A DNA stretch of 64,000 nucleotides from Methylobacter sp. Its GTDB lineage: Bacteria > Pseudomonadota > Gammaproteobacteria > Methylococcales > Methylomonadaceae. The notes below the pieces were generated by a model, which ran no database searches, had not been told where the DNA came from, and saw only the letters and a program-made list of their open reading frames with translations. The DNA is taken from contig NZ_SCTW01000060.1 in NCBI RefSeq assembly GCF_004322395.1, forward strand, positions 62,001 through 126,000, read 5' to 3'. Positions 14,986-23,234 of this stretch are shown here, piece by piece. A program made the translations under genes and the position numbers. The stretch's first letter is position 1. Each line of letters starts with the position of its first letter.

Positions 14986-15843
14986 ATGTGGATACCGATG
15001 GAAAAAACAGTTTTAGCGATACAGATCAAACCAGCCAAACGATTGGAATCTTTTGTTATCTCCAGGGATGGAGTGTATGCTGCGAGCCAGTCGGGAACTG
15101 GCGCAGCGGTAGACTCAGAGGCGTTAATAGAAGAAGCTCAGGCATTGCGTTTTCGTGTGTTTTGCAAAGAAATGGGCGCCAAGCTCAAAACCGAATCGGA
15201 AGGCTTGGATTACGATGAAGTCGATAGCTATTGCGATCATTTGATTGTGTATGACAACGTCAATAAGAAAATAGTCGGCTATACGCGTTTGCTTAATCAA
15301 GATCAAGCGGACCGTTTGGGTCGGTTTTATTCTCAAAGCGAGTTCAATCTGGATCAGGTATTAGCATTGCCCGGCCGCTTTCTGGAAATAGGCCGGACTT
15401 GCGTTGATCCTGATTATCGAGGCAGCGCGGTTTTAACAACGCTGTGGTCTGCGCTGGTTCAATACGCGCTTGAGGGGCAGTTTAATTATTTGCTCGGTTG
15501 CGCCAGCGTTACCCCAGGCCCTAGCGGCTTTGCGGTGGATGCGGTGTATCGGAATATCGATGCCAAAAATATTGCTCCGTCCTCGATCCAAGTCAGCCCC
15601 ACCATTCCAATACCCAGCGAATTAAGATGCGAGCGGGATGAATCCGGTATTCCTCCGTTACTCAAAGCTTACTTTCGTTTCGGCGCTGTCGTTTGCGGCG
15701 AGCCTTTCTGGGATGAAGATTTCAACTGCATGGATTTATTTGTGCTGTTACCGCTCGATCAATTGCAAGAGCGCTACAGCAAACATTATATGAGAGGCTA
15801 TCAGGCGGCTAGCAATGAAATCGAAAATACGGCTGTACTATAA
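14986..15843 (+). CDS. olsB: L-ornithine N(alpha)-acyltransferase-like GNAT protein (OlsB family)
   Basis: Expected to transfer a 3-hydroxyacyl chain from acyl carrier protein to the alpha amine of ornithine, the first step of phosphorus-free ornithine lipid synthesis. Seen: the family core LRFRVFCKEMGA, DYDEVDSYCDHLIVYD, GRFLEIGRTCVDPDYR and the C-terminal FNCMDLFVLLPLD. Residues 25-41 are ISRDGVYAASQSGTGAA, encoded by a 51-nt repeat inserted just before the conserved core. The next gene, a PlsC-type acyltransferase overlapping by 29 nt, fits OlsA. An ATG at 14998 is an alternative start. The upstream PhoB-type array suggests induction by phosphate limitation. A different N-acyl amino acid synthase is the alternative. 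Confidence 0.8.
   Translation: MWIPMEKTVLAIQIKPAKRLESFVISRDGVYAASQSGTGAAVDSEALIEEAQALRFRVFCKEMGAKLKTESEGLDYDEVDSYCDHLIVYDNVNKKIVGYTRLLNQDQADRLGRFYSQSEFNLDQVLALPGRFLEIGRTCVDPDYRGSAVLTTLWSALVQYALEGQFNYLLGCASVTPGPSGFAVDAVYRNIDAKNIAPSSIQVSPTIPIPSELRCERDESGIPPLLKAYFRFGAVVCGEPFWDEDFNCMDLFVLLPLDQLQERYSKHYMRGYQAASNEIENTAVL
15058..15108 (+). repeat. 51-nt coding repeat, copy 1 (in olsB)
   Basis: 46 of 51 bases are identical to 22625-22675. It contains the palindrome GCCAGT-CGGGA-ACTGGC and is read in frame as ISRDGVYAASQSGTGAA. All five differences between the copies are at synonymous third positions. Confidence 0.9.
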
Positions 15844-16609
15844 GCTTTTCCAGATTGTCATCCTGTTTATCAAAGGGCTGATCATCGCCGGGGGTATTTT
15901 CCCTATACTTGGCTTTTTATATTCTGCACGCGATGCGAAAATCAAGCGAGATGCTCTAAAAACCCGCTGGCTGAAATGGTTCGGTGCTATTGTTAACTTG
16001 CATATAATCAAAGATGGCGAGCTGTCGGAACGACGCGCCATTTTTGTCAGCAATCATATCTCATGGCTGGATATCATCGTTATCGGTCAATACCTACCGG
16101 CCTATTTTGTCGCCAAGAGCGATATTTCAAGTTGGCCTGTAATCGGTTATTTGGCCAGACAGGGCGGTACCATTTTTATCCGCCGGGGCAATAAACAACA
16201 TATCAAAACAACCGCCGAAAAAATGGTTTGGCTGTTAAAACAAAACAGCAACATAATTGCGTTTCCTGAAGGAACCACGACTAAGGGCGATGGGGTTTTG
16301 CATTTTCACCCATCCTTATTTCAGCCTGCATTGTTAACCCGGTCAGCTATTCAGCCCATAGCCCTGCAATACCAAGGTGAAGCTAAAGAACACGCGCCGT
16401 TTGTCGGCGACGATGCTTTTGTGCCGCATTTAATAAAAATGCTGGCTCTGGATAAAATCGAAGTGCGGCTTAGCTTCCTTCCTGCCATTAACAGCTCAGG
16501 AAAAAGCCGCCATGCAGTGAGCATTGAAACAAGAGATATGATATGGAAAAAAATCTTTGAGGATTTACCCACTGATAATTCAGGCCAGCAGTATTTAAAA
16601 CTTTTATAA
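15815..16609 (+). CDS. olsA: 1-acyl-sn-glycerol-3-phosphate/lyso-ornithine-lipid acyltransferase (PlsC/OlsA family)
   Basis: Membrane acyltransferase. Its position directly after the OlsB-like gene, with 29 nt overlap, points to O-acylation of lyso-ornithine lipid, though PlsC activity on lysophosphatidate is possible. An N-terminal hydrophobic helix (LFQIVILFIKGLIIAGGIF) is followed by the catalytic motif VSNHISWLD (NHxxxxD), the GGTIFIRRG segment and the FPEGTTTKGDGVLHFHPSLF motif. Its 264 residues are typical of OlsA/PlsC. Confidence 0.8.
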   Translation: MKSKIRLYYKLFQIVILFIKGLIIAGGIFPILGFLYSARDAKIKRDALKTRWLKWFGAIVNLHIIKDGELSERRAIFVSNHISWLDIIVIGQYLPAYFVAKSDISSWPVIGYLARQGGTIFIRRGNKQHIKTTAEKMVWLLKQNSNIIAFPEGTTTKGDGVLHFHPSLFQPALLTRSAIQPIALQYQGEAKEHAPFVGDDAFVPHLIKMLALDKIEVRLSFLPAINSSGKSRHAVSIETRDMIWKKIFEDLPTDNSGQQYLKLL

Positions 16610-16640
16610 GATTAGTATCTTACGCCGTCTGATAATGGCT

Positions 16641-16817
16641 CTACGTATCATCAGTTAGCCGAATTCCGGCCCAGATTATTTTAACATCCCAACTAAGCCA
16701 TTTAAGCTTAATCATCTCAATCGCCTCATTTACTTCGATCCAAAAAATCTCCTCACTTCTGGCAACACTCGCACCATTACTGTCTTTGCAGATAAAATTT
16801 ACAGTATATCTATTCAT
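16641..16817 (-). CDS. Small hypothetical protein, 58 residues
   Basis: An open frame from ATG at 16817 to TAG at 16641, with a strong purine-rich ribosome site (AGGAGCAGGAAG) directly upstream. The product starts MNRYTVNFICKDSNGASVAR and contains the tryptophan-rich segment WLSWDVKIIWAGI. No family recognised. It lies alone between the acyltransferase and hypX. The good ribosome site and the composition make it a plausible real gene. Confidence 0.5.
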   Translation of the reverse strand: MNRYTVNFICKDSNGASVARSEEIFWIEVNEAIEMIKLKWLSWDVKIIWAGIRLTDDT

Positions 16818-16920
16818 CTTCCTGCTCCTGTTTGTGTAGCCTAATACTTAGGCTAAATATATTTTGATTAAGAAATATTATCCATTCATTCAAACCCTTC
16901 CAAAGAATGTGTCTGGCTTG

Positions 16921-19079
16921 CTACGCCGATTCAAACTCTAGTTTTTTTAAATGCTTATTAAGCACCATGTCCGAATGAATAATATGGTCCGCCCATTTAT
17001 CCATGAATTCACGAATATCTCGTTTTTTCCATTCATTGTTTGTTATTTTATGTTCGATTTCCGCCAGCTTTTCCAAAATGGCATTATGCTCCGTTGCATG
17101 GCTCTTATATTGTCGAAAGTCCGACTTTTCCATCAGTTCTTCTTCAGTATTAAAATGTTCTTTGACATACCGATAGATCAACTGAATATTTTTGTGAAGT
17201 TCTTCACTGCTCACAGAGGCAACCAACTGATTAGCTAAGATAAATATATCTTTGTGCTGGTTATCGGCTAAATCGTCACCCGTTTGGTAAACATCCTGCC
17301 AGACAAAGTGGTACATACTTCCCAACGATAATCTTTTTTCCAGACCGTCTTTCTGACGATGTAGGGCAATATTGTCCGGGGTTTTATTATCATTGTTTAC
17401 CTTATAAACAAACCGTTGCCGCGCTAAATGGTAATCCTCATTGCCATAGAAATTTTCATACATTTGAGCTAATTCAAATTGCCGGTAAGTGGCTAATGCT
17501 TTCAGTGATTCGTCATAACAACGCGTCTTGGCTTTTTCGTTTAATGCTTCATTATCATCAATAATGACATTAACCAAGCGCTTGACTTGAGCGATAAAAA
17601 TCTTATGATTTTTATCGAGAACTTTATCGATTAACCCTATATGCCATGCATTCTTGGCGCTGATCGGCAAACGCTGTTCGGTCAGTGACGTCGCCATTTC
17701 CTGGCCGACGCGCTTGGGCAATAAATAAGTCCAGTACTCGGAACCGTAAATCTCGCCCATATTTTTATAATGCGGGTTAAAAATTACGCCTTCTCTGGCA
17801 AATACCTTGTCAGCCGCTATAGCCATAATTGCACCGCCTGCGCCTGCACTGCCCGCAACAGCAGAAATGGTTAATTTATCCAGCGTGGTGACGATCTGAT
17901 AGATAAGATCATTAATCGCATTGATATTTAACCAGGACTCATCCGCCGGACTATCCGCGGCCTCAATGCGATTAAGGTGAATCCCGTTTGACCAACATTG
18001 TTCACCACCCATCAGCACAATGGCTTTTACAGGTAAAGTTGCGACATGCTGATAAACCAATAGCAAAAGTCGGCATTGCTCAGTACTCATGCCGCCATTG
18101 TGAAAAGAAAAATAGATATAAGCGGCATCCGCTTCTTGTTCATACCAGACTTCTTGGCACGGAAGCTCCCGTCCAGGTTTGGTATAGTCGATTTCAATAT
18201 GTTTGATGGTCTTGGATAACAGGCCTTTTAAAGCGGAAGTTGCAGGTACCGCCTTAGGCATTAAATCTTTTAAAACAAATGCAGCGGGCAGCTTTACCCC
18301 TTTCGAACCGTATTCCGGTTTCGGTTTTAAATGTCCGATCCAGATAGCACCGTCGATAGTTGCCCGGCAAATAGCATGATTTGCCGTTGCGATTATTTCT
18401 CCGGCTTTGCCGGTTAGACGGCTTTCTTTATGCGCATTAAAAATAAAAAACGGATTTCATCCAACAGTCCTGGACTACCGTCAGCGGCATTGATACGTCT
18501 TAGAATCTCATCCGTTTTATGTATTTTCCAGTTAATTGCACGATCTTGTTGTTTGATTAATGGTTGTAATTTTCCTTTATAGTCGGGCCTACTGTAATCC
18601 TGCACTTCCGGCTTGAAATTCGGGGCATTGAAATAGGATAAAGCCTCCCATAAACACTCGACCGCCGCTTGCGTCACGTCCCGGTAGAACAAAGCGCTTT
18701 TAGTGGTTTGGCGCATCATGAAAGTTTTATGAGCCCAAATATCGCCGGTATCCATTTCTTCAGCGGCTTCCAATAAAGAAACGCCCCACTCCGGTTCGCC
18801 ATTCTGGATAGCCCAATCTAAAGAAGACGGTCCCCGGTCGCCTTTAATGCCGGGATGAACGATAAGACATTTATAGTTTCGATAAATTTCCGGGGGCAGG
18901 TACTTGGTTAAAAAAAGGCACAGAATCAAATCCGGTTTGAATAACGAGACGCCTTCTATTAACTGTGCAATATCACCTGAATGTAATTCGACTGAGACCA
19001 AAAAACCCGCATCCTCAAGCTCCGTATAATACCGCTGTGTCAGTCCTGAAAATGCCGATGAAATGAGTAAAATGCGCAT
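16921..19079 (-). pseudogene. hypX: HypX-type hydrogenase maturation protein with C-terminal hemerythrin domain, split by a frameshift
   Basis: HypX has a formyl-tetrahydrofolate-binding domain and an enoyl-CoA-hydratase-like domain, and makes the CO ligand of [NiFe]-hydrogenases in air. The first part (19079 to stop at 18414) reads MRILLISSAFSGLTQRYYTE...HPGIKGDRGPSSLDWAIQNG, the formyltransferase half. The second part (open to 16921, first ATG at 18261) reads NGGMSTEQCR, NAINDLIYQIV, GSAGAGGAIMAIAADKV and YGSEYWTYLLPKRVG, the HypX hydratase half. The two join at a T-rich stretch (18436-18450, coding strand CGTTTTTTATTTTTAATG): one extra base restores the reading FNAHKESRLTGKAGEIIATA. After the hydratase domain a bacteriohemerythrin-like domain follows (DNQHKDIF, HFNTEEELMEKSDFRQYKSHATEHN, HIIHSDM), not part of ordinary HypX. 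Sequence error, decay or slippage could each explain the split. Confidence 0.8.
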
Positions 19080-19132
19080 AATATAGGCTCCTAATTATTA
19101 TTGGTTGTTTATGGATGTTGACTTGCATCGAT

Positions 19133-20127
19133 CTAGGCGGCCCTTATTGAATAAGATTCGGATAGGCCGAAGCGGTCGCGATAATTTTGCGGGTTAATGC
19201 CCAGCTGACGGATAAAAGCGCGACGCATGCGTTCCGAGTCAGCAAAACCGGATCTGTCGGCCACGGCATCCATCGACAACTTAGTGCTGCCCAGATAATG
19301 GCGAGCGGCATCAATACGCGCCATTTCCACAAATTTGGCCGGTGTCATGCCGGTTTCCGACAAGAAAAACCGTGCAAAGTTCCTGGGACTCATGAACATC
19401 CGTTCAGCCAACGCTTCTACCCGTAAATCTTCGGTAAGATGAAGCATGATCCAGGCCTGTAAATCTTTAAGTTCAGGGCGAGTAGCCTCGCTAGTCAAAT
19501 AGGCGCTGAATTGGGACTGGCCGCCCGGCCGTTTGAGAAATACCACCAGATAACGTGCGACCAGCAAAGCCAGCTCGCTCCCCCAATCTTCTTCCACCAT
19601 CGATAACGCCAGATCAATGCCGGAGGTTATGCCTCCTGATGTTGAAATAAAGCCGTCGCGTAAAAAAATCCGGTCCGGTTCGACGGTAACCGATGGGTAA
19701 TCATTTGCTAATCGAGCGCAATAATCCCAATGGCTGGTAACCTTAAGACCATCCAGAAGGCCGCTTTCCGCAAGCAAAAAAGCCCCTGTGCAAACTGAAA
19801 CAAGCCGTCTAACCCGTGGCGCTATGGCTCGAATCCAATCCTGTAATGCCTGATCGCACAATAAGCAGTCCACATCCGGGCTACCGGCAATGATCAGGGT
19901 ATCGATACCATCAGTTATTTCGCTATATGCTTTAGTAGCAATAATTTGAAGACCGCATGAGGTTGTTATCGGCCCCGGCTTTGCCGCTAACACTTCAATT
20001 AGATAGACGGGCTCACTGCACAAGCCCGAGCTTTGTAGCCGGTGTTAGCGAAAGCAAATACTTTTATAAAGCCGGTAATATCGAGAACCTCGGCGCCGGA
20101 AAATATGACGATACCGACAGACCTTAT
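19133..20127 (-). pseudogene. GlxA-like DJ-1/PfpI-AraC transcriptional regulator, frameshifted near its N-terminus
   Basis: AraC-family regulator with an N-terminal DJ-1/PfpI amidotransferase-like sensor. The main frame (20023 to 19133) has SVCTGAFLLAESGLLDG, TSGGITSGIDLALSMVE and a C-terminal double helix-turn-helix (VEALAERMFMSPRNFARFF...SMDAVADRSGFADSERMRRAF). The expected first 40 residues are missing from this frame but can be read in another one upstream: RSVGIVIFSGAEVLDITGF followed by IKVFAFANTGY. At the expected start methionine (20125-20127) the codon is ATA. One frameshift at about 20010-20030 plus a lost start codon suggest a decaying gene. Targets unknown. Confidence 0.75.
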
Positions 20128-20305
20128 TTTTGCTGCACGAGTCTGCGAACAATCAATAGCAGACTAAAAAACGAGCATGTTGATATGCTCTCTGATTGTC
20201 TAATTTTGCACAATGACGAGATCCCCTCATTTTCTGCCAAAATGCTGATTGGTATGCCACAATCGCTTTAAATTCACAAATACGGGTTGACCTTTTTTAC
20301 ATACT

Positions 20306-20458
20306 ATGAACGACGCAGACCAACCAGAAACGATTAAGTTGCCTCTGGATTTAATTAGCAGAATACAGCGATGTGATCAAACATCCGAGCCGGTTTATTT
20401 GCAACTGAAACGGCAAAGGACAGCGAAAAAGAGGCCATTTTTCATTTGTGTTCTTTAG
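20306..20458 (+). CDS. Short open frame of unknown status, 50 residues
   Basis: MNDADQPETIKLPLDLISRI is followed by a basic tail ending KRPFFICVL. It has no recognisable family and no clear ribosome site (CTTTTTTACATACT precedes it). The TAG stop lies one base before the PhoB-type array of the next gene. It could be the remnant of a longer gene. Confidence 0.25.
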   Translation: MNDADQPETIKLPLDLISRIQRCDQTSEPVYLQLKRQRTAKKRPFFICVL

Positions 20459-20498
20459 ATTTCATCATCCTGTCATAAGCCTGTTATATGTTTGCAAT
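20459..20498 (+). promoter_or_regulatory. PhoB-box array upstream of the CDP-alcohol phosphatidyltransferase
   Basis: Seven-mers at 11-nt steps: ATTTCAT (20459), CTGTCAT (20470), CTGTTAT (20481) and TTGCAAT (20492). The central pair, CTGTCAT-AAGC-CTGTTAT, is 13/14 to the classical half sites. The gene start (20527) lies 40 nt downstream. Confidence 0.75.
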
Positions 20499-20526
20499 AC
20501 TTATAACGTTAACCGCAGGATACGCT

Positions 20527-21039
20527 ATGAAAATTCTAAGTTTAATGAAAATTGCCGATATTTTTACCGTTGGAAATCTGTGCTGTGGCGTCCTTTCGAT
20601 TTTGTTCGCAATTGACGGTTCTTTTTACTTAAGCGCATTGTTGCTGTTTTTGGCGGTGATATTTGATGTGCTTGATGGAAAAATAGCCGGCCTACTGCAT
20701 CAAAAGAATCTTTTCGGCAAGCAAATCGATTCCATGTCCGATTTGGTATCTTTTGGCGTTGCTCCCGCCTTGTTATTTTATTCGCTGAGCTCACCCGGCG
20801 TTTTAGGTGTTGCAGTGGCCTTGTTCTTTATCGCCTGTGGCATGCTTAGGCTTGCACGCTATAATATTTCCGAAGGAACGGGTTTCGAAGGCGTGCCTAT
20901 TACCGTGAATGGTGTGCTGTTCCCTGTTCTTTTTCTGCTTTTTAGCAGCTTTCCTCAAAGTCTGAATTATTGGCCGATGGTCTTTTTAATTCAGGGTTTT
21001 CTGATGATTTCCACTTTCAAAATATCACGGATATTCTGA
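20527..21039 (+). CDS. CDP-alcohol phosphatidyltransferase (PssA-like)
   Basis: Integral membrane enzyme transferring a phosphatidyl group from CDP-diacylglycerol to an alcohol, most likely serine (phosphatidylserine synthase type). The start at 20527 is set by CGCAGGATACGCTATG and gives MKILSLMKIADIFTVGNLCCGVLSI in 170 residues. The catalytic signature is nearly complete: DGKIAG, then G and the two aspartates in LFGKQIDSMSD. The usual arginine after DGxxA is glycine here, so activity or substrate may differ. Several membrane helices follow. It is preceded by a PhoB-type box and followed by a peptidase-like and a hydrolase gene on the same strand. Confidence 0.8.
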   Translation: MKILSLMKIADIFTVGNLCCGVLSILFAIDGSFYLSALLLFLAVIFDVLDGKIAGLLHQKNLFGKQIDSMSDLVSFGVAPALLFYSLSSPGVLGVAVALFFIACGMLRLARYNISEGTGFEGVPITVNGVLFPVLFLLFSSFPQSLNYWPMVFLIQGFLMISTFKISRIF

Positions 21040-21150
21040 TTTCCTCCATTGAATGAAGCCGGTATGAAAAAAGAATTGTCACCGCAAGTTGTTTTTTGGG
21101 AAGTAGTGTTGTATTTGTTCTCGGTAGACTATAACTGCTGATTCGGTTTT

Positions 21151-22167
21151 ATGACGGCCATTAAATTCCCTGAACTCGAACAACTTGAGCGCATTATTGA
21201 GCAATTAGGAGACCGCGCCCAAACTGAGGTAATAGAAAGGATTCGATATCAAGATCATGAATTCCCCATTCATTGCATCACTCTGGGATCAACTCGGCCC
21301 GATGTGCCGGTATTAGCCTTTTTCGGCGGCGTGCATGGATTGGAGAAGATCGGCTCTGAAGTCATTCTGTCTTACATGGAAACCATCACTCAGTTGCTGG
21401 ACTGGGATCAGGAGTTTTTGTCCCGGCTTGAAAAATCCCGGCTGGTTTTTGTACCCATCGTTAATCCGGTCGGCGTTTATCTGGGCACACGCAGCAATGG
21501 CAACGGCGTTGACCTGATGCGCAATTCGCCTGTGGAAGGCGAGGGTGCAACCCGCATTTTTAGCGGCCAACGCATCACACCTCATCTGCCTTGGTACCGC
21601 GGCGATGAATCGAAAATGGAAAAAGAAGCGCAAGCTTTATGCCGTGTTGTCGATCAGCACCTGTTTAACTCGTCTTTGTCCATTGCGCTGGATTTACACT
21701 CAGGATTCGGCATTCAGGACCGGTTATGGTTTCCCTATGCTTCGCGCAAAACTCCTTTTGCTTTTATTGCCGAAACGCTGGCTTTAAAAGAACTGTTTGA
21801 CCGTTGCTATCAACATCATATCTACAGGATCGAGCCGACTTGTCTGGAATATGTGATTAACGGCGACCTGTGGGATTATCTGTTCGATGATTTTGTGCAG
21901 CGGTTTGAGGCGGAACGACTATTTTTGCCGCTGACTCTGGAAATGGGATCGTGGCTTTGGCTGCGAAAGAGCCCGATGCACCTATTCTCGAGGCATGGCT
22001 TGTTTCACCCGCTACTGCCGCACCGCCAGCAGCGGATTTTTCGACGGCATTTCATGCTGTTTGATTTTTTATACCGGAGTCTTTTGTATCCCGAACAATG
22101 GACGAAACTTAAGCCCCGGCAAAAGGCGGCTTATGAAAAAAAAGCTTTAGGTCTTTGGTATGAATAA
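21151..22167 (+). CDS. M14-type zinc carboxypeptidase/AstE-like protein
   Basis: Zinc hydrolase of the M14/succinylglutamate desuccinylase superfamily. Zinc ligands are visible as His and Glu in FFGGVHGLEKIGSE (about residues 50-60) and a later His in ALDLHSGFG. Product of 338 residues. The C-terminal part (LFSRHGLFHPLLPHRQQRIF) is basic and less conserved. The substrate is unknown; a peptide or amide bond is likely. The stop overlaps the start of the next gene by 8 nt, so the two are translationally coupled. Confidence 0.7.
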   Translation: MTAIKFPELEQLERIIEQLGDRAQTEVIERIRYQDHEFPIHCITLGSTRPDVPVLAFFGGVHGLEKIGSEVILSYMETITQLLDWDQEFLSRLEKSRLVFVPIVNPVGVYLGTRSNGNGVDLMRNSPVEGEGATRIFSGQRITPHLPWYRGDESKMEKEAQALCRVVDQHLFNSSLSIALDLHSGFGIQDRLWFPYASRKTPFAFIAETLALKELFDRCYQHHIYRIEPTCLEYVINGDLWDYLFDDFVQRFEAERLFLPLTLEMGSWLWLRKSPMHLFSRHGLFHPLLPHRQQRIFRRHFMLFDFLYRSLLYPEQWTKLKPRQKAAYEKKALGLWYE

Positions 22168-23062
22168 AGCGCTGGGACAAAACTGGATTCTGCTTAGAGG
22201 CCTGGCGCGTGAGTCTGGACATTGGGGCGATTTTGTCCCTCTTTTACAATCGACGTTTCCGGACGCTCGAATAACGCTACTGGATTTGCCTGGTACCGGT
22301 TGTTTTCATCGGGAAACCAGCCCGAGCTCGATTAAGGCGATAACCGATAGTGTCCGCCGTCATGCTCTTGAACAGTGTTTGTTACAGCAGCCGGTAACGA
22401 TCTTGGCGCTTTCTCTGGGTGCGATGGTCGCCTGGGAATGGATGCGCCGCTATCCCGAGGATATTTGCGGCGCAGCTTTGATGAATACCAGCTTTGCCGA
22501 TGTGAGTCCTTTTTATCAGCGGCTACGCTGGCAAAGTTATAAAGACTTTGCCGCATTAGTAATGACGAGCAACTTGCGTAAGCGGGAATCGGGGATTTTG
22601 CGGTTGACCAGCAATCGCCGGAATATCTCCAGGGATGGTGTGTATGCCGCAAGCCAGTCAGGAACTGGCGCGGCGCAGCATAAGCAGATAGCTCAAGCTT
22701 GGGAAAAGATGCAAATCGAGCGCCCCATTAGCCTTAAGAACAGTTTCATTCAAATTAAAGCGGCTGCAACCTATCGGCCTGGGGACATAAGGCCGAAGCA
22801 GCCGATTTTATTATTAAACGGATTGGGCGACCGCTTGGTATCGCCAGCTTGTTCCGAGGCGATACACAAAAAATGGAACCTGAAGCTCCGTCGCCATCAA
22901 TGGGCAGGCCACGACCTGACCCTGGATGACGGCGCATGGGTGGTGTTGCAACTGAAAGATTGGCTGGATCAAAAGTCTTTTATTCACCACGAAGACACGA
23001 AGGACACGAAGTTTATTTCTTCGTGTCCTTCGTGTCTTCGTGGTGATAAGCTTTTAAGTTAA
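22160..23062 (+). CDS. Alpha/beta hydrolase (BioH-like) carrying two repeat-derived segments
   Basis: Alpha/beta-fold hydrolase with nucleophile motif LALSLGAMVAWEW (GxSxG variant, Ser about residue 77), a GDRLVSPACSEAIH acid segment and WAGHDLTLDDG with the catalytic His. The substrate is unknown. Two insertions of repeat DNA are visible. In the cap region, NISRDGVYAASQSGTGAA is encoded by the same 51-nt element as in the OlsB-like gene. At the C-terminus, IHHEDTKDTKFISSCPSCLRG is the translation of a 63-nt hairpin repeat. The native end is probably near LKDWLDQKS. Coupled to the upstream peptidase gene. Confidence 0.75.
   Translation: MNKALGQNWILLRGLARESGHWGDFVPLLQSTFPDARITLLDLPGTGCFHRETSPSSIKAITDSVRRHALEQCLLQQPVTILALSLGAMVAWEWMRRYPEDICGAALMNTSFADVSPFYQRLRWQSYKDFAALVMTSNLRKRESGILRLTSNRRNISRDGVYAASQSGTGAAQHKQIAQAWEKMQIERPISLKNSFIQIKAAATYRPGDIRPKQPILLLNGLGDRLVSPACSEAIHKKWNLKLRRHQWAGHDLTLDDGAWVVLQLKDWLDQKSFIHHEDTKDTKFISSCPSCLRGDKLLS
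22625..22675 (+). repeat. 51-nt coding repeat, copy 2 (in the alpha/beta hydrolase)
   Basis: In the same reading frame as the 15058-15108 copy, giving the identical peptide ISRDGVYAASQSGTGAA. The five base differences are GGA/GGT, GCT/GCC, GCG/GCA, TCG/TCA and GCA/GCG, all synonymous. Confidence 0.9.
22984..23046. repeat. Perfect 28-bp inverted repeat forming the hydrolase 3' end
   Basis: TCACCACGAAGACACGAAGG starts the left arm (22984-23011), perfectly inverted at 23019-23046 with a 7-nt loop. It belongs with the CACGAAG family seen at 1833-1945. It supplies the last 20 or so codons of the hydrolase and may also act as a hairpin at the transcript end. Confidence 0.85.
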
Positions 23063-23234
23063 TGCAAATGTCATCAAACAGTAGGGCGCGCCGCGCGCGC
23101 CAGAGGTAGGGCTAATATTCAGCATCGGTTTAACTCCAAGCTGCGAAGAAGGCGCGCACGGCACGCCCTACTTAATTGGCTGGCGGATTATTAAAGCAGG
23201 TCATTGAAACTTAATGAAAATGTCATCAAACAGT
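23056..23234 (+). repeat. 27-nt direct duplication flanking a palindromic element upstream of plcP
   Basis: 23056-23082 and 23208-23234 match at 25 of 27 bases (core TGTCATCAAACAGT). Between them sits a GC-rich palindromic element (23081-23171) with GTAGGGCGCGCC at the left and GGCACGCCCTAC at the right. The duplicated segment includes a PhoB half site (ATGTCAT). Confidence 0.75.

Follow-up and report, generated by a model that had tools for sequence, protein, structure and literature searches.

Two copies of one repeat in unrelated genes

The 64,000-nucleotide stretch of Methylobacter DNA analysed here (the window) raises the question of why two unrelated genes should carry nearly the same short palindromic repeat in frame. 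One copy (A) resides in a gene for an olsB-like acyltransferase and the other (B) in a gene for an alpha/beta hydrolase. Our best reading of the sequences is that the 51-nt repeat is a new mobile element that lives within genes, comparable to the Rickettsia palindromic elements, and we consider it quite probable that both copies belong to a non-autonomous mobile element of methanotrophs of the Methylobacter group. Such an element appears to be a rare case of selfish DNA inside working genes. The relevant features of the window are as follows.

14998..15843, + strand: olsB-like GNAT acyltransferase gene, host of copy A (Pfam Acetyltransf_5, 1.4e-34); the insert forms residues 21-37
15054..15057, + strand: target TGTT directly 5' of copy A, matching the YKWT motif derived from 157 unique sites; the +4 base (15112) is G
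15058..15108, + strand: copy A, 51-nt element, sense, codon phase 0, encoding ISRDGVYAASQSGTGAA (R1 model, 78.1 bits in the source genome)
15060..15073, + strand: copy A hairpin 1, 5-bp stem, loop GGGA at 15065-15068 (fold and covariation)
15079..15107, + strand: copy A hairpin 2, 11 bp with a 2-nt bulge, loop CGGGA at 15092-15096 (fold and covariation)
22160..23062, + strand: alpha/beta hydrolase gene, host of copy B (Pfam Abhydrolase_1, 1.3e-13)
22625..22675, + strand: copy B, 51-nt element, sense, codon phase 0, encoding ISRDGVYAASQSGTGAA (R1 model, 76.4 bits)
22627..22640, + strand: copy B hairpin 1, loop GGGA, with pair 4-15 broken (T-T) (fold)
22646..22674, + strand: copy B hairpin 2, loop CAGGA, with pair 24-48 as C-G where copy A has T-A (fold and sequence)

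A scripted comparison confirmed the initial observation of an in-frame pair that shares 46 of 51 bases and encodes the same peptide. The five mismatches, at element positions 15, 24, 27, 36 and 48, each fall on a third codon position and are synonymous, and two of them form a compensatory pair. A repeat finder returns 52 nt for the two copies, which is the 51-nt element plus the T just 5' of it. When up to 3 mismatches are allowed, an 18-nt core is present at two places in the window, where 0.03 would be expected. The GCCAGT/ACTGGC hairpin described in the sequence-only reading is real, but it forms only the top of a longer stem, with a second hairpin 5' of it.

Orthologues of olsB carry 0, 1, 2 or 3 inserted units, always at the same place. 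Among nine hydrolase sequences of the genus, including that of the source genome, four have exactly 17 extra residues and five are empty at this position. The predicted structure of the hydrolase (mean pLDDT 37) was too poor for use, and that of the olsB product was weak: the best of five models reached 58.5 and the remaining four stayed under 35, with pLDDT below 50 at insert residues 31-37.

A two-hairpin unit that forms tandem arrays

The 51-nt unit consists of a small hairpin with an NGGA loop, a short linker, a longer hairpin with a CNGGA loop and one weakly conserved terminal base. Both helices covary, with 78 double-change cells compared with 21.4 after shuffling; when one copy per site is used, the count is 121 compared with 35.1, a value reached in none of 500 shuffles. 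Judged from these sequences, it is the two-hairpin structure, rather than the peptide, that is conserved. Both strands fold about equally well, and the ratio of G-U to A-C, used as a strand test, is 46:40 in sense copies, 43:10 in antisense copies and 47:42 in other copies.

Many units form head-to-tail arrays (units no more than 54 nt apart), in which the spacing is 51 in 78 of 79 cases. These arrays have a polarity: the unit closer to the consensus is the 5' unit in 38 of 60 arrays and the 3' unit in 17, with 5 ties (p = 0.006). Half-units in the loci examined, seen with short context, look like diverged or interrupted units. Because 51 nt is divisible by three and none of the six frames of the consensus contains a stop codon, an insertion adds 17 residues to the protein rather than breaking it.

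Distribution among methanotrophs

The source genome yields 61 matches to the R1 model (E<=1), and the 5' pattern of the element, with up to 2 mismatches, matches it 39 times compared with 3 for the reversed control. A DNA search located the element in 20 of the 23 genomes of the genus, and across the family 77 of 237 genomes contain model matches (E<=1e-4). Several named isolates are among the carrier methanotrophs, one being Methylobacter tundripaludum SV96. A search of nine loci against Rfam gave unit-touching matches only at E 2.4 or worse, far under the family cut-offs. Our literature searches, with subscription papers mostly outside their reach, met no account of this 51-nt family, and a search with the element and peptide strings returned a single match, to an unrelated vaccine paper.

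Insertion sites, orientation and codon phase

Among the loci examined, a matching site without the array was found for 84 of 196 arrays, with a gap of exactly 0 in 66. Under stricter counting, the subject sequence lacks any unit within 75 nt for 82 of these 84 arrays, and the gap is 0 in 61 of the 82, which represent 27 independent sites plus two arrays unassigned to a site. No target-site duplication or deletion was observed at gap-0 arrays with unit-free orthologous sites. A DDE-type MITE was considered and rejected, since such a duplication is missing and a terminal inverted repeat was not seen in the consensus. The target motif from 157 unique sites is YKWT|NNNG, with T at -1 in 97% and G at +4 in 75%, and it is also present at 47 sites without a spanning gene.

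For classification, with gene calls made from open frames and codon scores, 208 arrays were reduced to 83 independent sites, three of which have mixed labels. An open coding frame spans 63 of the 83 sites (76%), and 20 are without a spanning gene. This abundance inside genes bears out the proposed likeness in principle to Rickettsia palindromic elements; motif-weighted random placement predicts about 67%, and the in-gene location is thus only slightly above expectation. The host genes include valS and those for RNase R, RapA, HolC, MinC and an M3 peptidase (Pfam). Annotators of methanotroph genomes and protein engineers should read the 17-residue segments that lengthen ValS, RNase R and other core enzymes as inserts, not domains.

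Within genes, 33 independent sites are in the sense orientation and 30 are antisense. Sense copies occupy phase 0 at 29 of the 33 sites, compared with 55% under the target-motif null (p = 6.8e-5), whereas antisense phases agree with that null (p = 0.69). The target motif alone is therefore rejected as the source of the frame bias, and the frame constraint suspected from the sequence holds for sense copies. A length divisible by three, stop-free frames and one tolerated sense frame make it possible to test how mobile DNA comes to occupy coding sequence.

Both flanks code on one strand, in any frames, at 154 of the 208 arrays of the 51-mer; for the related 50/52-nt elements, of which there are 32 arrays, the count is 0. 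A coding frame likewise spans 0 of these 32. However, the relatives are embedded in larger repeats, and there may be a different reason why they are missing from genes.

Proposed mechanism and search for a mobilising enzyme

Comparison with orthologues shows the element as a precise insertion on the 3' side of a YKWT motif, where +4 favours G, with neither duplication nor deletion of the target. From this we propose that arrays lengthen at their 5' edge, since T|ATCG at the left junction continues to suit the target. Host selection would purge sense insertions from the two phases that are less well tolerated, leaving phase 0. On the model of IS200/IS605-type Y1 transposition, the element may move as a folded single strand, with a recombinase acting in trans and recognising both the hairpins and the T-rich target.

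Y1_Tnp genes occur in all 23 genomes of the genus. The 51-mer was absent from all 30 Y1_Tnp loci examined, drawn from a list of more than 100 Y1 matches, and none of these 30 contained a partner element sharing its ends and carrying a Y1 transposase. A structural scan of the 30 loci and eight further stretches (around seven Y1 genes of genome G000 and one of G001, two of them repeating regions already covered) found only a relative of the element beside the Y1 fragment of G001, present in both loci from that region, and a looser setting added one weak match at a Y1 locus. A single Y1_Tnp match was listed for genome G001 (47.5 bits, within a 141-aa frame) and likewise one for genome G015 (153.7 bits), yet each genome has 25 element copies among the matches listed. 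No single kind of Y1 enzyme therefore seems common to the carriers. No guide sequence was recognised 5' of hairpin 1.

Alternative explanations

Chance similarity or an assembly artefact can be set aside as having almost negligible probability, since the same family is found, with copies at orthologous sites, in independently assembled isolates and MAGs. We also regard it as very improbable that the repeat is a selected short protein segment (a modular linker or domain) recombined between genes, even though the window pair differs only synonymously and sense copies hold one frame. The purely synonymous divergence is true of the pair but not of the family: among 2202 comparable cross-site pairs (sense phase-0 copies with 4-6 differences), one encodes the same peptide, and the A/B pair is unusual in this respect. 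Relative to the consensus, synonymous and nonsynonymous changes stand at 188:388 for sense phase-0 copies, 151:301 for antisense copies and 219:400 for other copies, and when each independent site contributes a single copy the contexts do not differ (median Fisher p 0.83). Furthermore, the 30 antisense sites among the 63 in genes encode other peptides, and the stem covariation extends to codon positions 1 and 2. Within olsB, pN/pS is 0.70 inside the insert and 0.08 beside it. Selection on the peptide, one of the possibilities raised at the outset, is not supported, given the equal ratios in the three contexts together with the olsB values, whereas the suggestion of a tolerated linker gains support from the latter. 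The peptide thus looks tolerated rather than selected, with no selected role visible in these data. The sequence-only reading had also stated what a chance pattern would look like, namely mostly intergenic copies, no frame bias and frequent nonsynonymous changes; nonsynonymous changes are indeed as common as in control copies, but the copies are mostly intragenic and the sense copies are frame-biased.

It is possible, though on balance unlikely, that the 51-mer is a true REP/RAYT (or IS200/IS605-derived) family with an identifiable Y1 transposase partner. Hairpins, a T-rich 5' target and the absence of target duplication would suit this explanation, as would the presence of Y1_Tnp genes throughout the genus, the position of the G001 relative about 200 nt from the sole Y1 fragment of that genome, and the fact that 9 of 13 arrays in genome G190 follow GTAGGGTGCGTTT or a near variant, which resembles GTAG-tagged REP. 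However, the 51-mer consensus, by reading, is without a GTAG or CGTC tag on either strand, no 51-mer lies beside the 30 Y1 loci, the G001 match sits in a short frame, and the 51-mer is mainly intragenic. REP/BIME repeats with TnpA-REP (RAYT) are likewise high-copy small hairpin repeats, possibly non-autonomous (PMC3733652, PMC8266576). The 50/52-nt relatives tested here are extragenic. A different proposal, which we consider improbable, is that the GGA-loop hairpins are predicted CsrA/RsmA-type sites (CANGGATG in hairpin 1) and that copies spread or persist by tying host mRNAs to CsrA or by acting as sponges. The loops remain NGGA or NNGGA as the stems vary, across six genera of the family and two further gammaproteobacterial families, and one CsrA gene is present in each of 11 genomes checked. 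The CsrA/RsmA binding consensus is ANGGA in hairpin loops; hairpin 1 fits, with a variable position 8 between a conserved A7 and GGA, whereas hairpin 2 is mostly CNGGA, with ATGGA in some relatives. Against this proposal, in-gene copies occur in both orientations, and conservation of the GGA positions differs little between sense, antisense and other copies, so loop conservation seems to be inherited from the source element rather than maintained by mRNA selection. A broader version, equally improbable, would treat the repeat as a mobile RNA-type module: CsrA/RsmA, or another protein that binds such loops, would recognise its two GGA-loop hairpins, and this recognition would contribute to spread or retention, with a shift to a frame-neutral 51 nt having let a gammaproteobacterial superfamily of extragenic repeats colonise genes. 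If true, paired CsrA sites would have been placed in host mRNAs as a by-product of gene colonisation.

Relation to known elements

If the 51-mer is an in-gene mobile element, as we favour, its closest analogues are the Rickettsia palindromic elements, each of which folds as one long palindrome. According to a review (PMC10969869, for Ogata et al. 2000, 2002), they measure about 150 bp, lie in frame in many unrelated genes and are the best-known in-gene selfish elements of bacteria. The 51-mer too is short, lies in frame in genes of unrelated function and adds a peptide to their products; it is set apart, by comparison with these descriptions, by its 51 nt and its two consecutive hairpins. Exact tandem arrays, a clear target motif, empty sites, both orientations and methanotroph hosts contrast further with the Rickettsia case. 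The methanotroph family would be an independent and much smaller example, in which orthologous sites are exactly empty, the target has a motif, arrays show a polarity and copies are numerous enough to count.

Non-autonomous IS200/IS605 derivatives (PATE/MITE type) have hairpins and insert 3' of a short T-rich motif without target-site duplication. The 51-mer resembles them in its hairpins near both ends and in its insertion without duplication 3' of a short motif, but no partner with shared ends was found, no guide was recognised and it is far shorter. It also prefers G at +4, and a preference at this base is unusual among IS200/IS605 targets.

Small mobile repeats with open frames inside genes are also described for the enterobacterial RU and ERIC families (PMC2759123, PMC2229807), although these belong to another host group, and RU units, at 103-168 bp (PMC2759123), are longer; the distinction is one of description. 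PARCEL is described as an intragenic palindromic repeat that codes for a peptide (PMC2996958). Compared by description, it occurs in repeat proteins, whereas the 51-mer lies in unrelated conserved enzymes and its peptide appears to be free of selection.

Structure and distribution of the element

Two genes of the window carry the same 51-nt repeat, as the sequence-only reading had claimed: copies A and B share 46 of 51 bases, and all five differences are indeed synonymous in the host frame.

14998-15843, + strand: olsB
15058-15108: copy A, within olsB
22160-23062, + strand: alpha/beta hydrolase gene
22625-22675: copy B, within the hydrolase gene

Anatomy of the 51-nt element (element positions)
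3-16: hairpin 1, loop NGGA
22-50: hairpin 2, loop mostly CNGGA, bulge at 27-28
51: last base, off consensus in 25-32% of copies

Base pairing holds in 94.8% of cells over 60 distinct copies, and the stems show 78 double changes where shuffles give 21.4 (sd 3.5). Taking a single copy from each of the 83 independent insertion sites gives 121 versus 35.1 (sd 7.1), and none of 500 shuffles reaches 121. As single-stranded DNA, copy A, copy B and the antisense strand of copy A out-fold all 200 shuffles, and the element consensus has stop codons in none of its six frames. The A/B differences fall at element positions 15, 24, 27, 36 and 48. Since positions 24 and 48 are partners in the long stem, the T-A of copy A and the C-G of copy B amount to one compensatory change.

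Searching the genome and its relatives, a course proposed earlier, yields many copies. In the 4.59-Mb genome (157 contigs), the 5' pattern has 39 matches with up to two mismatches, versus 3 for a reversed control, and a covariance model built from 60 copies has 61 (E up to 1, the last five above 0.01). The element occurs in 20 of 23 genus genomes by DNA search, and in 77 of 237 family genomes, spread over 20 of 29 genera, by model search. Among the matches listed, 19 of the 23 genus genomes have at least 23-28 each and the other four have 2-6, while genomes outside the genus have 1-17, with at least 25 in G190, a genome of another genus. Scanning genome contigs for an exact 22-nt pattern finds at least 114 stretches, from Methylobacter, Methylovulum, Methyloglobulus and unclassified Methylococcaceae or Methylococcales. 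Of 369 genomes drawn evenly from the class, eight match at 1e-5, our own included; three of these belong to one distant genus and have 6-10 copies each.

Insertion, target and arrays

Units can stand head to tail in arrays, and for 196 arrays we compared the flanks with all loci collected. A matching site without the array was found for 84, with a best gap of exactly 0 in 66 and of -3 to +30 in the remaining 18. Because some of these sites retain another unit, a stricter recount was made, in which 82 of the 84 have a subject free of any unit within 75 nt and 61 have gap 0; these 61 represent 27 independent sites plus two arrays not mapped to a site.

At 157 unique sites (27 of the 196 arrays, whose right flank looks like the element, were set aside), the target has T at -1 in 97%, T or A at -2 in 93%, mostly T or G at -3 and T or C at -4, and G at +4 in 75%. 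The motif holds where no gene spans the site: over 47 such sites, the frequency with pseudocounts is 0.89 for T at -1 and 0.70 for G at +4. The copy A site fits it, and the copy B site deviates at +4, -3 and -4. Because the left junction, T|ATCG, retains the target, arrays are predicted to grow at the 5' edge. Among 60 arrays of at least two units, the 5' unit is nearer the consensus in 38 and the 3' unit in 17, with five ties (p 0.006). Spacing within arrays, defined by units 40-54 nt apart, is 51 in 78 of 79 cases.

Location in genes and codon phase

For codon phase we used 208 arrays, all with a PWM score of at least 30 and 150 nt or more of flank, and each set of flanks counted once. An open frame that scores as coding spans 142 of them. 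Once orthologous insertions are merged, 83 independent sites remain, three with mixed labels: 29, 4 and 0 sense sites in phases 0, 1 and 2, 18, 10 and 2 antisense sites, and 20 that are neither. Sites in genes thus number 63, and other sites 20. A null in which the consensus is placed at motif-weighted positions of 103 named loci expects fractions of 0.227, 0.148 and 0.041 for the sense phases and 0.331 for other positions. The genic location is therefore close to random expectation, and the target motif alone favours sense phase 0 to 55%.

The frame constraint suggested by the sequence-only reading holds for sense copies, which are in phase 0 at 29 of 33 sites (p 6.8e-5; 22 of 24 among 61 pattern-scan sites, p 1.3e-4), but not for antisense copies, whose phases agree with the motif null (p 0.69) and are accounted for by the target motif. 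Sense insertions in phases 1 and 2 are under-represented, as though selection had removed them. Pfam domains in all nine antisense and all seven sense hosts scanned besides the window genes, RapA, M3 peptidase, aminotransferase, RNase R, ValS, HolC and MinC among them, confirm that the host genes are real. Twenty hosts were sampled, and the four without a scan are L223, a 55-residue frame, and loci L206, L131 and L198, which look like repeats of genes already included.

The encoded peptide

Selection on the peptide, another suggestion of that reading, is not borne out. Scored against the consensus in the sense frame, synonymous and nonsynonymous changes number 188:388 in sense phase-0 copies, 151:301 in antisense copies and 219:400 in other copies, a similar synonymous share throughout; with one copy per site, the fractions are 0.333 and 0.337. 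The dN/dS-type comparison proposed earlier, run as pN/pS on six olsB orthologues that each have a single unit at a shared site (locus L098 left out), gives 0.70 in the insert versus 0.08 in the 600 nt downstream. Stop codons are avoided in sense phase-0 units, occurring in that frame in 0 of 111, compared with three of the 74 antisense units and six of the 96 others.

When copies from different sites that differ at 4-6 bases are paired, the peptide is the same in 1 of 2202 pairs at sense phase-0 sites and in 5 of 1916 at sites not called sense. Given this rarity, copies A and B form an unusual pair; they are one of two with unchanged peptide among 69 pairs in their own genome with at most six differences.

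The OlsB N-terminal site holds 0, 1, 2 or 3 units in 17 aligned sequences. In the hydrolase, exactly 17 extra residues are present in four of nine aligned sequences and absent from five (the nine come from 18 orthologues, our own and one partial included). In other species (orthologues L100-L111), the OlsB C-terminus (window position ~15801) is a second hotspot of the element and in some cases holds several units. The window gene has none at this place.

Relatives of 50 and 52 nt

Relatives in other genera share the two-hairpin plan and the GGA loops, with different stems and lengths of about 50 or 52 nt. Matches number 123 in G190 (mostly 52-nt spacing), 64 in G163 and 61 in G158, all genomes of other genera. 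A structure-only scan is specific, with hits to reversed controls of 45:0 in G190, 46:2 in loci of genome G000, 11:0 in genome G046 and 8:1 in G163/G158. No coding frame spans any of 32 arrays of relatives from three groups; a fourth group gave no testable array. Because an insert of 50 or 52 nt would disrupt the reading frame, a second test, using codon tables retrained per group, asked whether the two flanks code on one strand whatever their frames, and this was found for 0 of the 32 versus 154 of 208 arrays of the 51-nt element. In a distant family, none of five units from a structure scan of 20 stretches lies inside a spanning frame. In the sample examined, the unit found in genes is the one whose length is a multiple of three, although larger palindromes enclosing the relatives could keep these extragenic.

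The G190 arrays (L340-L359) have up to four 52-nt units, and a contig end cuts 11 of 20 stretches, as if assembly breaks there. Relatives at L435 and L438 (G347, distant family) are bordered by sequence that scores as convergent genes, a REP-like position.

Mechanism and known systems

Precise insertion without duplication, fixed polarity, a T-rich 5' motif and conserved hairpins suggest that a trans-acting recombinase would recognise the element as a single strand. We take a Y1 (HUH) enzyme to be the leading candidate for mobilising it, but found no partner. Genes with the Y1_Tnp domain are present in all 23 genus genomes, and the element is next to one at none of 30 loci examined. G001, a genome with many copies, has a single Y1 match, in a 141-residue frame. 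At L279/L378 of this genome, a two-hairpin relative inside an outer palindrome is found ~200 nt away from a short Y1_Tnp frame.

The element shares insertion features with IS200/IS605 derivatives, and lacks both the tag and the extragenic location of REPs. The likeness to Rickettsia palindromic elements seen by the sequence-only reading stands for the way of working but not for size and fold, and for the latter reason we do not class the element among them.

The GGA loops resemble CsrA sites, and CsrA is present in one copy in all 11 genomes checked. Loop conservation is about equal in sense and antisense copies, and therefore the loops do not seem to be maintained by a role at the mRNA level.

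Other repeats nearby

At its 3' end, the hydrolase reading frame consists of a perfect 28-nt inverted repeat of the CACGAAG type (22984-23046). The last 25-30 residues of the hydrolase match at many places in genus genomes, so its C-terminus is another repeat. An inverted repeat at 23080-23172, with arms AGTAGGGCGCGCCGCGCGCGCC and GGCGCGCACGGCACGCCCTACT 49 nt apart, resembles a GTAG-tagged REP. At loci L186, L210 and L044, which gave half-unit hits, hairpin 2 is interrupted or replaced by a GCGACCGGCCGGTCGC-type palindrome, one repeat nested in another.
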